Below, in pieces: positions 21,305-55,053 of a stretch of 64,000 bases of DNA. The notes beneath the pieces are model-generated. The model did no database searches. It worked only from the letters and a program-made list of their open reading frames with translations, and was not told the DNA's origin. Location: contig JAVLRN010000008.1 of NCBI GenBank assembly GCA_032821775.1, positions 868,001-932,000 on the forward strand, read 5' to 3'. The position numbers were made by a program, and so were the translations under genes. This DNA comes from Sanguinoderma infundibulare (Eukaryota; Basidiomycota; Agaricomycetes; Polyporales; Polyporaceae). Position 1 is the first letter of the stretch. The number at the start of each line of letters is the position of its first letter.

Positions 21305-22887
21305 TGAACCAGCGACGGTGCAGCGTAAGTAACGGTGGTGGACGACGGTGCGCACGTGGTGAGCGCTTCACGTCCGTCAGGCGCCACGGTTCTTTCCGAT
21401 GACGTTGGCCTGATGGTTTCCTCCTCCTCGGCCTCCTCGTTATCCTCCTCAAGGACTCGATGGAGCCTTGTCGAGCCTCTCTCATTTATGATTATCGTAT
21501 GCGAGGCTCAGTCTATACTTATTGTTGCCAGATGCAAGGAAATCAAGTCGTGATGGTGAGTTACTCCTGCATGACCGCTCCAGCCATTTTTCGTTTACTT
21601 ATTTGAACCGCTTTTGAGGGCTCTGCATCTCCGGTGCTCCCCCATGTGGACTATTATTGTAGCTCAGTGCTCACAGATACGTTCACACGCTATTCGCAGT
21701 TTGCATTTGACGTCATTTTAGGTATGTCGTGTGCGGGCCTGGGTCCCAAGTCGCGAGCGTGACGTCGCCGGAGTGTCGCAGACATTTCTTGAACTTTAGT
21801 AATTGACCGGTATTGGGTTGTTCTTAAGACCACGTAACATGATTGTGGAGATGGTTTACAACGTTCTGTTCTCCCCCGCGTTAGTTCCAAGTAGGGTTCT
21901 TCAAGATGTTCAAGGAAGGCTTACCTTTTGGCGATGCGGTCATCGTCGTAGGCTGCAGTGAAGCATTCTACGCCCTCGAAGCACACGTGAGTCCTTTTCC
22001 CTGTCACTTTCGTACTATGTCTCATGGCCCATGACACTGTTCGCGGTATGGGAGCGACTACTTTGCTTCCTTCTGCAATTGTAGGATGCAATCGCTAACG
22101 CCACAAAACTCAGTCCGCATTGCCCTTCAATGCTCTCTGCTTCCCTAGGCGTCCCGACGTCTGGGGACTTCGAGACAATACAGTGTTCGTCCGACCGATC
22201 GTCGCATGAGCTGGCTCACTGGTAAGTACATCCGGAACGCACGTGTCTCATGTTCGGTAACGAGACCCTGACATCTTCATCATGTATCGAATGGCCAAGA
22301 CGGACCTACATGCCAACTATACGGTATGTCTTGCTTGCACCATATATATCGAGCTGAAACATATAAGATTGTTGTGCATGGGCCGACAACGATGGTTATT
22401 CCGGTGACGTCAACACAGTAGCTTTCATGACGTGCGGATGGAAAATCTGCGCGGTTCACGGCCTGCGCGGTTCAAGGGGAAATTTTGAGGAATTATCCCA
22501 TCTTCTCCTTCAATTCCTTGCCCACATGACCGCAGGAAGACCGGGTATATGCGCTCCGAAGGCGCGTAACTCTCGCAAGGATCTTCGACCGGTTCGCTCA
22601 GCGCCCCCACAAATCTGCACCCGCATACACTCACGACGATCGTCCTCGCCTTCCCTTCTATTCGAGGAAGGTGGTGCGCTTTCGGGGGCGCTCCGACCAC
22701 CAAGGCTCCATGCAAGTGTCGACTGCATACAAGTCCACTCGCAATGGATGGCGCTAGTGTTGCTGGGTCCGGCTCGCCGCCCTGCTCCGCGTCTTGTATC
22801 CGGAGGGTACAAATGGGATGTAGCACCAAGCCTGTTGGTCAGGTTGTCCTCTAACGGCCTACTCCTCAGTGTCCTCTTCACAACGCC
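21305..22887. other. intergenic with possible unassigned exons
   Basis: Between 21906 and 22322 (+) there are exon-like pieces with plausible splice sites: an ATG segment reading MFKEGLPFGDAVIVVGCSEA that ends at a GTGAGT donor, and a later piece containing RRPDVWGLRDNTVFVRPIVA that reaches a stop. I could not join them into one gene or recognise a family. The rest holds nothing clear. Confidence 0.35.
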
Positions 22888-49942: not shown

Positions 49943-51777
49943 ATGCGGCTTCTCAATACGCATACCGGAGATTTTGAAGAGTTTTTCAGTTCCTCAGGCA
50001 CGCCCCCGTACGCGATTCTATCACACACCTGGGATCCGAAGGGAGAACAGACGAACCAAGATGTGAGGGAGATACAACGCATATACAAGAAGTCGTCTTC
50101 CATTTCCGTCCCTATTCTCCTTGCCGGGCCCTCAGGCCGCTCTCGGGTTGCTGCCTTGGACGAGGTTGTCGAAGGTGCGTTGGTTGATATTCTTACTTGT
50201 GTGAGGTTCACTTATCTTTCCGTGCCGTACCCTTCGCGGGCTCCACACCGCGCCTAGACTCCGAGTCCGACATATGGAGTGACCATCGTCTCTCACCGAA
50301 GATCCGGGAGGCATGCAAAGTCGCGCGCCGCGACGGCTACCAGTACATCTGGATCGACTCCTCCTGCATCGACAAGACTAGCAGCTCGGAGCTGTCCGAG
50401 GCCATCAACTCGATGTACGACTGGTACCGCGGTGCGCACGTATGCTATGCCTACCTGTCGACCGTCCCCCACGACGACGCCATCCCAGACGCGAACTCCG
50501 AATTCCGCAAAAGCAGATGGTTCAGGCGGGCATGGACGCTTCAGGAGCTTCTTGCGCCTCGACGGCTTGTGTTCCTCTCGGCGGGTTGGGAGCCTATCGG
50601 GACCAAGGATACGTTGTCCGAGGTGGTCTGTGACATCACCCATATCGATCGGAGGTTCTTGACGCACGAGAAGCCGTTGAGCAAGGCAAGCGTCGCGCAG
50701 CGGATGTCCTGGGCGGCCGGACGAGAGGCGACACGGGTCGAGGATCAGGCGTATTCACTCCTGGGTATCTTCGGGATCACCATGTCGACGCTGTACGGAG
50801 AAGGTACACACGCCTTCCGACGACTACAGGAGGAGATTCTGAGCAAAATCCCTGATCAGAGCTTGTTCGCTTGGGGGTCCGTATATCCCTTGCCAACGAG
50901 TGGTACCTCGGATGACCCTCTCCGATACACTCTGCTGACGCTCGACCCTTCCGAGTCGTTCTTCGCGGTATCTCCCCTAAATTTCTTGGGAAGCAATGCG
51001 ATTGTCAGCCCATCTAGCGAAACTCTGGCATATTTCCAACTCCCTCCACTCGACTACGCCGCTACACGTGCCACTCTTCGCCTTTTGCCCATCCAAGAAC
51101 TAGACATACCGGTCTTTGTCCCCAGTGGGCCGGACAAATGGTTTCTTGCCATCCTCGGATGTTCCAGCGAGAGCGCAAACTGTGGTCCGGGGAAACTTCT
51201 CGCTAGGGTCTGCTACATGCGTGCCTCTGAGTCTCAGAGCAATCTCCTCTACCCAGGAATGATTGACATCTATTCGACGTCCGTGAACCCTGCCGACGAT
51301 GGGCCGCGTGTGGCTCATATCCTTGCTCTTTCCCCTGACGACATCAAGCGCAACTGGCGTGCACAAAAGCAGATCGAAACCATCTGTCTTCCCTATCTGG
51401 AACGAGCCACCGGCACTCCTGAACAACACATGTCGCCTGATCCATTGGCTCTGGTCCTTTCGGACTGGAGCCATGCTACGCTGCGGAAGGACTGTGGCTG
51501 CCGCGTTTCGAAGGTTCAAGGTCCTACGAAACTCCATCCTAGCTCTCATTCCTTCGCTCTCATGAGCGACAATTTCACTATCTATATCAGCTTTTTACAC
51601 ATGGTGCAAGGCGAGGATCGCGAGTTCCTGATGGTGGTCGCCCGAATCTGGATGCTGTCGCCGTCTCCTCACGACTCGCATGACCTGGACGCCATCGAGA
51701 CACGCGCACGGGTCGCTGCGCCGTATGCCGCTACTAGCTGGGTCAGCGACGGACAGTGGCCTGCAGTGTTGCCGTAG
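49943..51777 (+). pseudogene. HET gene 3, 5' part (interrupted by insertion)
   Basis: Third HET paralogue, split by the mobile element at 51774-54325. Exons 49943-50174 and 50258-51777 (83-nt intron at the conserved place) would give about 583 residues. The HET domain is complete: YAILSHTWDPKGEQ, IWIDSSCIDKTSS, RRAWTLQELLAPRR, RMSWAAGREATR and LLGIFGITMSTLYGEG. The frame then enters the first C-terminal module and ends at a TAG contributed by the first bases of the insertion. The HET domain itself has no other lesion, so a truncated HET-only protein could still be made. The rest of the gene continues in the same frame after the element. Confidence 0.85.
51767..51773 (+). repeat. apparent target-site duplication, left
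   Basis: TGTTGCC immediately before the element, repeated at 54326-54332. Removing one copy plus the element leaves the HET frame unbroken. Confidence 0.65.
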
Positions 51778-51778
51778 A

Positions 51779-51872
51779 GTATACAACGACACTTGCAAGT
51801 TCGACGCCTATTAGGCGTCTCCCACTTGCAAGTCCCCGGGATAGGCGCTGGAAAACACAGCCACATTCTCAC
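51779..51872 (+). repeat. left terminal inverted repeat
   Basis: Begins GTATACAACGAC and ends CCACATTCTCAC. It contains, in order, the palindromes GTATAC, ACTTGCAAGT (51791-51800), GACGCCTATTAGGCGTC (51803-51819) and a second ACTTGCAAGT (51824-51833). The right repeat reads the same on the opposite strand with only a few mismatches. Confidence 0.9.
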
Positions 51873-51998
51873 CTCGTCTCACCCCCATAGCGGCCTCTAC
51901 CATCCTCATTGGCCTCCCCGCCATTGGCCCGCCTCCTGCTCGTTGGTCGGCCTCACCGGCAACCATCATGAGCGCAAAAAAAGTAGATAAGTGCTTCC

Positions 51999-52007
51999 AA
52001 AAAAAAA
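51999..52007 (-). terminator. T9 tract, pol III terminator of left tRNA-like unit
   Basis: Nine Ts on the minus strand directly after the tRNA-like unit. Confidence 0.6.
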
Positions 52008-52008
52008 G

Positions 52009-52087
52009 GGTCACCCCCAGGCTTGAACCCCGTGAATGCAGTCTCCACCGCTAATCACTGATCACATTATCCACTAGACTATCACCA
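52009..52087 (-). tRNA. tRNA-like unit (degenerate), outward-facing left
   Basis: The minus strand has an A-box-like TAGTCTAGTGGAT and a B-box GGGTTCAAGCC about 45 nt later, in a unit of tRNA length followed by a T9 terminator. Stems are imperfect and I cannot assign an anticodon. Probably a tRNA-derived pol III unit rather than a working tRNA. Confidence 0.5.
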
Positions 52088-52137
52088 CTTGATATAGATA
52101 CAAAGTTTAGGCAATACATAGCCATCCTGGGCCGCAA

Positions 52138-52147
52138 ACTTGCAAGT
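52138..52147. repeat. internal ACTTGCAAGT palindrome
   Basis: Inner copy of the subterminal palindrome, followed by ACG as in the copy at 54047. It marks one edge of the captured segment. Confidence 0.7.
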
Positions 52148-52168
52148 ACGTCCCTCGACTGACCCACC

Positions 52169-53628
52169 TCAGCCCAGGTTCCTCGAGTCCGGCGTTCGCG
52201 CCCCCTTCCCGACGTCCACGCGTCGGCCCTCCCCTTTCCAATGATGTTCCGTCTGTTGCAGCGTCGTCCCCAGCGGCGAGTCCGAGAACGTCTCCCAATT
52301 GCGCTCCCTGTCCCGCTCTCGCTCCCTGTCCAGATCACGCTTGTTCGAGGACAGCGAGAGGTGCCGCGAGAGGTGCAGGTTTGATGGCGGCGGCATCGGC
52401 GGCTTCTCAAACGGCGAGTTAAAGGGTGAAGATGAGGACATCGGCGTGAGCTGTGCGCTTTCTGGCCGTTTCCGACGCCGCGGTGGCGGCACTGGTGGGG
52501 GTGAGGGATGATGCAGAAATCGCGATCGGCCAACACAGGGAGACGTGTTCGTGCTCGCTGGCATTGCACAATCCACGTCTACGCCGAGCGCAAGTGCAGA
52601 GGGCTTGCGGTCAGGGTGCGTCGGCGGAGGATCAGGCGGGAGTTCTGAGAGCGGTCTCAGCGGGGTATTAGTTGGCGATGACGCACACCGTCGCTGGGGT
52701 GGTTCAGATGCGGCACCATTTGTAGAAGCCGGAATCAGGGCGGCACGCTTGAGAGGAGATAGAGAAGCCGTTGCGACCTGCTTGAAAGATCGGGCAGGAG
52801 CGGCGGTCGAGGCAGTCGGGCTGAGATTCCGCTGTGGCGGTAGTTTGGGGACCGGATTGCGAACTGCGGTACGGTCAGCATAGATCCAGCAGACAAAGCA
52901 GAAGAGCTCACATTTTCGCTGGGGCTAATGCTGCGCATGCGCCGTCCTGAGCCACTCGAGTCGGAGCTGCTCCTTCATGATGCACTCTTACTCGAGCTTT
53001 TGCTCCGCTTGCTTCAAACTTTGTGCAATTCATGTCGCCTGCAGAGATTGCTGGATAAGAGTATTCATCATGTGCGGGATCGCGACATTGCAGGTCATGT
53101 GCAGGATGGTGGGAACAGGTGCAGGCAATTCACGATTTGCCTGCGGCTGCTGCTGATTCATAGATACATGTTGGGGAGGCGGCAGTACGGGTGGCTTCCG
53201 AGGGGGTAATGGGGGTATCTTGCTGTCCGCAGGACGTGTACCACTACCGGGGAAAACAGCCACACCCGCGGGCGCAGACTGCGGCGGGGGGACCCGTGGA
53301 AGACATATAGGGTGGAGCGTCATGCTCGAACGGACTGCAGTTGGAACGCAGCAAGCAGAAGACACGAACACACCTTGGACGAAGATGAGGGTGGGGTCCA
53401 TCTCCTTGCCATCAAGCACATGGGACACAAGCTTCAGGACGGCAAAGAACTGGCCGCCACTCAATGTATCTGCGGCTCCTAACTCGGGCGAGAAGAGCCA
53501 GAGGATCTGCAGCTGAGATGGTGAGGCACGACTGAGCCCAGATGAGGACAAGGACGCACCGAGTCAAGCGTGTTGGATGTGAGTGTGGGATAGCAGCCCC
53601 TCAGCCATGCTCGTGCTTCGCGGACCAT
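52169..53628 (-). pseudogene. captured segment of EH-domain-like host gene
   Basis: Minus-strand coding relic inside the element. From 53628, MVREARAWLRGCYPTLTSN runs to a GTGCGT donor, a 47-nt intron follows, and the next exon encodes LFSPELGAADTLSGGQFFAV with KLVSHVLDGKEMDPTLIFVQ. This order is what I recall for an Agaricomycete Eps15-homology (EH) protein related to yeast Irs4/Tax4. Further on are PPLPPRKPPVLPPP, a TLIQQSLQA helix, PTHPDRKPSA and a charged DRERERDRERNWE stretch. Introns are retained, so the copy came from genomic DNA, not mRNA. The N-terminal part of such genes is missing, and the frames between exons are not all joinable. The parent gene is not in this window. Family identity is moderately sure. 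Confidence 0.6.
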
Positions 53629-54030
53629 GGGTGGGGGAGGTCTGGAGGAGGACGGCGCCGAGTTGGATGGCTGCGTGATATGCGAGCTTGAACATGACTA
53701 TTGTTTCGAGCCTGGCGAGGAGGAGGTCTAAAGGTCGATGTTGGGGTCTGCAGGCAGATCCTGTTAGCTTTGATATCTGGAACATGAAGGCGGATGGGTA
53801 CGACAACACACGGAGGGAGGGTCAGTGCACTAAACAGTACTGCTCTGACGAAACCTATTGGTGCGAGCGCATAGGGGCAGGCGGGACAAGATAGACAGTG
53901 GCGGACGGTGTAGATGGCAGGCGGCGGGACGAGTGAGAAAGATGGCGGAGCAAGGGCTGCGAGAGCGCCTAGGGGGATAGGCGGATGGGAGGCGTGCGTT
54001 CGAAGGGGACTGATGGGATGGTGGCGGGAG

Positions 54031-54056
54031 ACTTGCAAGTTGCCCAACTTGCAAGT
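54031..54056. repeat. paired internal ACTTGCAAGT palindromes
   Basis: Copies at 54031-54040 and 54047-54056, separated by TGCCCA, at the right edge of the captured segment. Confidence 0.7.
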
Positions 54057-54124
54057 ACGCGGGACAGATTCGGCCAGGTGCTGGCGCAAAAGGTATATGA
54101 GTCTCAAACAACGTCCAAAGTTAA

Positions 54125-54198
54125 AGCCCACTTAGCTTACTTGTTAGAGCGCCTGGCTCATTTGTTGGGCACGGGGTTCGAACCCGGCTTGCTCTTAG
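54125..54198 (+). tRNA. tRNA-like unit (degenerate), outward-facing right
   Basis: A-box-like TTAGCTTACTTGTTAGAGCG and a perfect B-box GGGTTCGAACCC lie at tRNA spacing, with a TTTT run at 54199-54202. The acceptor stem is poor, so it is likely a tRNA-derived promoter unit, in mirror orientation to the one at 52009-52087. Confidence 0.5.
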
Positions 54199-54226
54199 TT
54201 TTACGGTGATTTTCTGGGCGCCACTC

Positions 54227-54320
54227 GTGAGAAGGTGGCTGTGTTTTCTGGCGCCTATGCCCGGCACTTGCAAGTGGGAGACGCCTAATAGGCGTCGAAC
54301 TTGCAAGTGTCGTTGTATAC
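54227..54320 (-). repeat. right terminal inverted repeat
   Basis: Inverted partner of 51779-51872, with ACTTGCAAGT at 54266-54275 and 54299-54308, GACGCCTAATAGGCGTC at 54280-54296 and GTATAC at the outer end. Confidence 0.9.
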
Positions 54321-54325
54321 GGCTC

Positions 54326-55053
54326 TGTTGCCATCGAGGAACATCACGCTCGTCCTGCCGTCGAAAGCCGAAGCGACGCTGAAATTCAGGTTGGACCTCG
54401 TGCAATCTTGGTACCATATCCATGTCGCGATCGCACATGCCACCAAACTCAAATCGCCTCCTCCTCCATTTCCCCCCGCTCCGTGCCCTACGGCCCCCTT
54501 CCGACCACCTTCACCAGGGGAGGAGCCTTGCCGGCTCAAGACTCCCCATACGTCGGGCATCAAGTTGATGCTCCTCGGATGCGTCGGGAGGCAATTGCAG
54601 GCGAAAGGCTACCCCGACGTTCGCTTCGAGGGCCCGAGCCAAGACAATCCCCAAACGCATACCTTGACCCTCTCCAATCCTGAGTTCATCATCACCATCA
54701 TCTTCGTCCACGAGCTCCGTGGCCCGTACAAACTCGTCTTGGCAGCCCACGTTACTCTGCGTTCTCTGCCTTTGCCGGGCGAGCCGTCGTCGTCGGCATA
54801 CCAGGATGGGCCACATACTCTGTCCTGGATGGACCGGTGTTCGATGAGCGGGGGGAAGGGATGGGAATGGAGCCTCGACCTGAGGCAGATCGCGCTAACG
54901 GGGCCATCGAGAGAACAGTTGATGTTGCACCTCGGTTTCGACCTTGCGTGGCAGTCGGAGTACTACGTCCACGCCGATATCGTCCCCCTGGATCCAGAGG
55001 CGGACGCCGCGAAGCTCCCTGTCGATGAAGTGTCGGTGGACGACCTGTCGTAA
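54326..55053 (+). pseudogene. HET gene 3, 3' part (after insertion)
   Basis: The first seven bases repeat the target site. The same frame then resumes with LPSRNITLVLPSKAEATLKF (compare RNITLVLPSGVTAITLEM in HET protein 1), finishes the first C-terminal module and includes one complete further module (GCVGRQLQAKGYPDVRFEG ... LHLGFDLAWQSEYYVHADI). It stops at 55053. Thus the original protein had two modules, one fewer than HET 1 and 2. No own promoter is expected, although transcription could start in the element. Confidence 0.85.

Follow-up and report, generated by a model that had tools for sequence, protein, structure and literature searches.

What kind of mobile element interrupts a HET-domain gene of the basidiomycete Sanguinoderma infundibulare, and which enzyme moved it there? 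The window analysed here, by which we mean the whole stretch of 64,000 nucleotides at positions 868,001 to 932,000 of contig JAVLRN010000008.1 (assembly GCA_032821775.1), contains an element of 2,552 bp within that gene (Table 1). A preliminary description, made from the letters of the window alone, had proposed a Pack-type gene-capturing element that lacks a transposase, and had assigned its combination of palindrome-built ends, outward tRNA-like units and host cargo to no named superfamily. We consider it probable, at roughly 85%, that this is a non-autonomous element with stretches from two other loci, which was likely cut and pasted into the HET gene by a KDZ-type transposase encoded in giant copies of the same family. 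Places elsewhere in the genome are given by our own handles (C and L).

The element and its target site

The two flanking copies of TGTTGCC match perfectly over 7 bp and thereby fix the element as exactly positions 51774-54325, the interval originally marked. Its terminal inverted repeats (TIRs), set in from the termini, are 94 nt long and 94% complementary, and the left one contains palindromes. The outermost 5 bp (GTAGA on the left, GGCTC on the right) are not reverse complements of one another but recur across the family. Upstream of the insertion, the open reading frame (ORF) at 50188-51777 matches the HET family of Pfam (PF06985) at 2.4e-14. With the element present, this frame runs into a TAG stop codon at 51775-51777. 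When the empty site was rebuilt in silico by joining the 60-bp flanks and removing one duplication, the frame stayed open, reading ...GQWPAVLP-SRNITLVLPSK... across the junction and continuing into the ORF at 54292-55053; the insertion would disable the HET gene. A Pfam scan of three ORFs inside the element matched no family, and no transposase or KDZ domain was among the results. The duplication, the in-phase HET frame, the repeats with their palindromes and the lack of a detectable transposase therefore all stand as first described, as does the host-like segment inside the element, for which two donor loci were matched.

A family of elements with shared ends

The preliminary description had called for a genome search with the terminal repeat, and the ends proved not to be unique to the window. 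The left 227 bp of the element has 41 matches in the genome, and the terminal 23-mer, at up to three mismatches, occurs at 38 sites, compared to none for the reversed control; the repeats occur far beyond chance. With single or damaged ends (L034-L040) excluded from the count, the ends pair into 17 copies, namely the window element, 13 further copies (L009-L021), two giants and L027/28. All 17 start with GTAGAG and 16 end with GGCTC; L011 instead has a second end of the left type. Of the 17, 13 (the window element, L009, L012-L019, L021 and both giants) are flanked by exact 7-bp duplications, whose sequences vary among copies, and the duplication of L010 has one mismatch. Copy sizes are 275 bp (L020), 1.85, 2.3-2.6, 5.3, 6.4 and 14.3 kb, and up to 39.7 kb. 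The smallest copy (C10:2268186-2268455) resembles a miniature inverted-repeat transposable element, with both ends present and no duplication. The 14.3-kb copy L027/L028 (C4:1976038-1990336), which also has no target duplication, has widely split cargo matches that probably reflect a later insertion or rearrangement within an old copy.

Giant copies encode a KDZ transposase

The giants lie at C2:40810-80537 (39,728 bp) and C11:555913-595639 (39,727 bp). They differ from each other by 163 mismatches and one gap over 39,505 aligned bases (99.6% identity), and each sits in its own, different 7-bp duplication. This near identity, together with the separate duplications, indicates that the whole 40-kb unit moved, and, judging by the identity, recently. 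A copy with the same ends that encodes a transposase had been suggested as a thing to look for, and the giants are such copies. Pfam was run on 35 of the 108 ORFs of at least 120 amino acids listed in the giant's four main pieces, L022-L025; a few of the 108 extend into flanking DNA. The KDZ domain (PF18758) was matched on separate exons at 9e-25 and 5.7e-7 and, on the joined exon pieces, over profile positions 6-217 of 217 at 1.6e-35; N-terminal to it lies a CxC2 domain (PF18803; 1.2e-32, L025:376-1038). The KDZ domain is present in both giants, in each of which the reading frame is shown to be open at the CxC2 exon, at two of the KDZ pieces and at the C-terminal exon. The motifs DGNF, SYDIHCQ and GEPCERLWG in this protein are ones that we provisionally take to hold the catalytic residues. 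Other Pfam matches above the curated cut-offs were T5orf172 (3.6e-7), hGDE_central (1.6e-54) and GDE_C (8.9e-36), and the remaining matches fell below them.

On the strength of the CxC2-KDZ transposase and the 7-bp duplications, we assign the family to the KDZ superfamily, so that a named superfamily does accommodate it. The KDZ transposase of the giants likely moves the whole family; the protein would act on the family ends, presumably through the repeated ACTTGCAAGT palindromes. Is the KDZ gene instead a passenger, or nested in the 39.7-kb copies, with the family moved by another enzyme, such as a hAT transposase that makes 7-bp duplications or an enzyme without a Pfam model? In favor of this, the giant has a mosaic make-up and contains an inverted pair of 98 bp, its members 12 kb from each other, that may bound a nested element; the Pfam scan covered 35 of the 108 listed ORFs, leaving 73; and rusts have hAT elements that make 7-bp duplications (PMC12730594). 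The giant KDZ gene, however, lies outside the 98-bp pair, inverted repeats of at least 30 bp were absent in searches confined to the single pieces L024 and L025, and the 35 scanned ORFs included no other transposase family and no hAT transposase.

A relative of the transposase gene bears on the same question. The genome has 87 KDZ matches, a minority of which were compared with the giant gene; the nearest relatives found are on C10 (46% amino acid identity) and C6 (55% and 40% over two stretches), followed among the other loci compared by two TET-linked genes at 31-33% and six others at 22-27%. About 1.4 kb beyond the C-terminal part of the diverged C6 gene is a terminus (L054:79) that starts with GAGCC, GAGCCGTCTACA. 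Its very first position already falls within the alignment to 13 of the 15 family right ends compared, which reaches 73-76% over 63-71 columns, with a best E of 1.5e-6 in a small search. Its layout is that of the family: two CTTGCAAG sites, spaced by 26 nt where the window element has 25 nt, enclose a different palindrome. A KDZ gene that adjoins a homologous terminus in a diverged relative makes a passenger origin in the giants unlikely, if conceivable, and we regard movement by another enzyme as improbable. No comparable terminus was seen in the examined pieces of the C10 relative.

Published KDZ elements place this assignment in context. The duplications fall in the published KDZ range (4-8 bp, with 7 or 8 typical; Zisupton and a Dileera family have 8 bp (PMC12730594)). 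Kyakuja elements, for example in Laccaria bicolor, have 7-bp duplications and 5'-CA..TG-3' termini, lack TIRs and carry a TET/JBP gene (PMC12730594). The family described here shares with them the KDZ transposase, the 7-bp duplications and a basidiomycete host, but its giants have no TET/JBP match and reach 39.7 kb. KDZ1-KDZ3 of Cryptococcus neoformans have TIRs of 139-241 bp, target-site duplications of 4-8 bp, lengths of about 9-11 kb and a CxC1 domain (PMC12810828). These likewise combine a KDZ transposase bearing a CxC domain with TIRs in a basidiomycete host, whereas the family here, compared to the elements as described there, has CxC2, gene-fragment cargo and Pol III-like (RNA polymerase III) modules.

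Several observations weigh against the reading that we prefer. The termini are unlike those of Kyakuja, being GTAGAG..GGCTC with 94-bp inset TIRs in place of CA..TG without TIRs; given the same duplication length but different ends, we file the family as KDZ and not as Kyakuja. Three of the 17 paired copies (L011, L020 and L027/28) are without a duplication, and the C6 relative is linked to the family by one end only, its other end being beyond the sequence reached. Transposition is deduced from sequence, with none observed. The KDZ gene could be a passenger in the giant, and a scan of 35 of 108 ORFs leaves room for another transposase.

Other features of the giants and of the KDZ loci are recorded here. 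None of the 29 TET/JBP matches in the genome is inside either giant; many have a KDZ match at a distance of 2-3 kb, as at C8:1011990 and C8:1014849, and such pairs probably belong to distinct KDZ elements of this genome that carry a TET gene. The T5orf172 gene (L022:3860-4873), of a family that we take to be GIY-YIG-like, lies in a stretch that recurs at five other places with 79-86% identity (C9:2576522, C7:400106, C4:839374, C3:3706313 and C12:423043), and it may therefore be a mobile-element gene rather than cargo. The 98-bp inverted pair (84% identity; C2:56651-56748 and C2:68684-68781, or L023:6337-6434 and L024:8370-8467) perhaps bounds a nested element that holds a 699-amino-acid ORF without a Pfam family. 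Stretches at C12:422699-429419 follow the order of a portion of the giant at 80-83%, lack matches to some of its captured fragments, and perhaps represent an older relative.

Captured cargo

Two segments in the interior of the window element have counterparts elsewhere in the genome (Table 1). The roughly 1 kb of the C11 locus that the window copy lacks is found in L012, a copy of 5.3 kb whose match to this donor spans 2.85 kb at 93% and runs to the end of the compared stretch on one side. Cargo from C11 is common to five copies (the window element, L009, L010, L012 and L027/28), suggesting that it was likely captured once and then multiplied. A comparison of cargo among copies had been suggested earlier, and different elements were found to carry different loci. 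L021 holds C10:1093092-1093909 (88%), which adjoins the part of the C10 locus found in the window element, as well as stretches from C11:1047310-1048480 and C12:2186593-2187463, and L015 holds stretches from C6:617718-618555 and C3:1153860-1154637 (90% each). The giant carries stretches of 77-1,037 bp, about 5.3 kb in total, with 88-95% identity to nine loci (C6:2319497-2321120, C12:2083275, C3:3308766-3311520, C5:1073238, C6:1730457-1732902, C3:4167237, C12:260842, C3:1463263 and C6:2260388), matches below 88% not being counted as cargo. Cargo loci were thus found in all four element interiors searched (the window element, L021, L015 and the giant); L011, L013, L014 and L016-L020 had no separate cargo search.

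One of the nine loci, C6:1730457-1732902, is a glycogen-debranching-enzyme locus that matches the giant over 1,037 bp at 93%. Within this cargo, a 53-nt stretch, GTATGT...TTTTACAG (L025:6247-6299), separates the hGDE_central and GDE_C frames, and its removal would join them in frame. The retention of this intron-like stretch points to capture as DNA. Cargo would accordingly be taken up piecewise as genomic DNA and then multiplied through transposition.

Could the shared stretches be ordinary duplications, with the apparent donors being old element insertions rather than sources? Identity between donors and cargo (88-95%) overlaps that among element copies, the direction of capture was examined only at the C11 and debranching-enzyme loci, and diverged ends would escape a pattern that allows three mismatches. 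At this tolerance, however, the terminal 23-mer is absent within the donor loci, the nearest being that of L018, about 8 kb from the debranching-enzyme locus. In addition, open frames at the C11 locus extend beyond both edges of the window cargo, and different elements contain different loci. We consider this alternative very unlikely and favor capture from the donor loci, although only the C11 and debranching-enzyme loci were inspected as genes and the label of host donor is inferred for the others.

A suspicion, formed by eye, that the C11 donor is an EH-domain gene found no support in Pfam or the PDB, and the name was dropped. The 6.4-kb copy L021 also contains a repeat of about 220 bp (L021:2646-2867) with at least 25 matches at 75-78%, and a 1.3-kb stretch (L021:3660-4935) with many copies at 69-92%.

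Table 1. Features of the element and its surroundings, in positions of the window
Feature	Position	Strand	Remark
HET-domain gene, open frame 5' of the insertion	50188..51773	+	PF06985
Target-site duplication, left copy	51767..51773	.	TGTTGCC
Element	51774..54325	+	2,552 bp; begins GTAGAG, ends GGCTC
Left terminal inverted repeat	51779..51872	+	inset 5 bp; two ACTTGCAAGT palindromes flanking one GACGCCTATTAGGCGTC palindrome
Left module, T9 run	51999..52007	-	candidate Pol III terminator, ahead of the inverted repeat
Left module, B-box-like GGTTCAAGCCT	52019..52029	-	one mismatch to GGTTCRANNCC
Left module, A-box-like TAGTCTAGTGG	52071..52081	-	overlapped by the 12-mer that is best conserved in left-end positions 100-400
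Captured segment 1	52250..53625	-	93-94% to C11:163361-165758 (L065); ~1 kb of donor absent at 53287
Captured segment 2	53629..53876	-	91% to C10:1092836-1093083
Right module, A-box-like TAGCTTACTTG	54133..54143	+	
Right module, B-box-like GGTTCGAACCC	54175..54185	+	151 nt from terminus
Right module, first TTTT after B box	54199..54202	+	candidate Pol III terminator
Right module, second TTTT	54210..54213	+	part of the best-conserved stretch of right ends outside the inverted repeat
Right terminal inverted repeat	54227..54320	-	inset 5 bp
Target-site duplication, right copy	54326..54332	.	TGTTGCC
HET gene, same frame resuming 3' of the insertion, to stop codon	54333..55053	+	

Outward Pol III-like modules at the ends

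The outward tRNA-like units of the preliminary description survive in part: the promoter-like signals are there, but recognisable tRNAs are not. We scanned 450-bp ends for an A-box-like string, a B-box-like string and a run of at least four T in that order, using strings that we take to be the A-box and B-box consensus. The 29 ends scanned are both ends of 13 paired copies and of the C2 giant, plus the single end L034; L020, the C11 giant, L027/28 and damaged ends were left out. The module points outward in 28 of the 29 ends (all but the left end of L012) and inward in none, compared to 5 of 5,800 dinucleotide shuffles, although the 29 ends share descent and hence are not 29 independent cases. 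The B box is 151 nt from the terminus in right-type ends and 253-258 nt in left-type ends, in which the A box is at 306-311 nt. On both strands of the window the scan found three modules, namely the two of the element and one other, and in the main pieces of the giant it found one match in the interior besides the modules of the two ends. The other module in the window is at 22393-22463 on the forward strand and is not a tRNA gene according to ARAGORN. ARAGORN found no tRNA in the window, in 22 loci or in L054, and Rfam gave no match, and so no tRNA family, on 12 sources at E up to 1 and only unrelated families on single units at E up to 10.

To measure conservation outside the inverted repeat, we used eight left and nine right representatives, with near-identical copies dropped. 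The best 12-mer on the left is at the A box (0.979, versus a mean of 0.766). The top three on the right are at the second TTTT (0.949), the B box (0.944) and the A box (0.921), versus a mean of 0.699, and the value at the first TTTT is close to 0.78. In the C6 relative, an outward module of different sequence shows the same three signals in the same orientation, with the A box at 310 nt and the B box at 264 nt from the terminus. We read the conservation of the modules as suggesting selection on a Pol III-type promoter signal and not on a tRNA.

The opposite possibility is that the modules are neutral relics, tRNA-derived fragments inherited from an ancestor and devoid of Pol III function. The failure of ARAGORN and Rfam to recognise a tRNA is consistent with this, as is the common descent of the ends, which makes 28 of 29 less than it seems. 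Two further results speak for relics and against working modules: on the left, neither the B box, ranked 89 among 289 windows, nor the T run, ranked 208 among 290, is better conserved than its surroundings, and RNAalifold found no pairs with two-sided changes. On the other side are the position of the left A box and of the right T run, B box and A box as the most conserved 12-mers outside the inverted repeats, and the persistence of three signals, orientation and distance in the C6 relative despite a different tRNA-like sequence. A scan of 17 other loci found no module, but it is a weak control, as these are KDZ or TET gene loci, five of which are overlapping stretches of the C10 and C6 genes, and not known ends. 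Neutral relics are a serious possibility, to which we give somewhat less than even odds.

A Pol III-dependent heterochromatin barrier is known at fission yeast centromere 1 (PMC2040200), where, as here, Pol III promoter signals border repeat DNA; that barrier is a chromosomal locus, whereas the putative modules here are built into transposon ends. By analogy, the modules would recruit TFIIIC or Pol III and would hold the ends in open, silencing-resistant chromatin. We therefore offer, as a tentative and rather doubtful proposal, that the outward tDNA-like modules may be working parts of the ends, acting as chromatin barriers that protect elements of 40 kb, along with the genes they captured, from silencing and leave the sites for the transposase accessible, and that they may have been selected as promoter signals and re-formed from different tRNA sequences in different lineages.

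Relation to other gene-capturing elements

Two other assignments were considered and rejected. Helitrons have neither TIRs nor target-site duplications, and the family described here has both. Dada elements have a fixed insertion site in small-RNA genes, whereas here the duplications differ by copy and the tRNA-like units are inside the element. Plant Pack-TYPE elements are non-autonomous TIR elements with captured coding DNA multiplied by transposition (PMC8903248). The window element is similarly a non-autonomous TIR element with DNA from non-transposon loci, but it belongs to a KDZ family in a fungus, in which even the copy that encodes the transposase is pieced together from captured fragments. 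In Pseudocercospora fijiensis, a hAT element captured and multiplied histone H3 (PMC6710886), also a case of a fungal TIR transposon multiplying captured host DNA; that case concerns one housekeeping gene, whereas the KDZ family holds several loci per element. Gene capture by Helitrons is known in fungi (PMC4289320); in maize, Helitrons can be as long as 39 kb and contain as many as nine gene fragments (PMC6431247). Given these precedents, the kind of phenomenon is known, while the KDZ version, the size and the ends look new. In the open-licence literature searched, we found no account of KDZ elements capturing host loci or of TIR transposons with Pol III modules.

Implications

These results link gene shuffling of the Pack type with the KDZ superfamily in a fungus of the mushroom lineage. 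The copies that encode the transposase are roughly four times the size of the KDZ elements of 9-11 kb in the publications cited above. Capture appears to proceed in stages: parts of one C10 locus are found in both L021 and the window copy, with the larger share in L021, and about 1 kb of C11 cargo in L012 is missing from the window copy. The insertion in the window is a concrete example of a mobile element in a HET gene, and insertional loss in this class of genes could alter self/non-self recognition. If the modules work, it would become testable whether a DNA transposon carries its own chromatin boundary.

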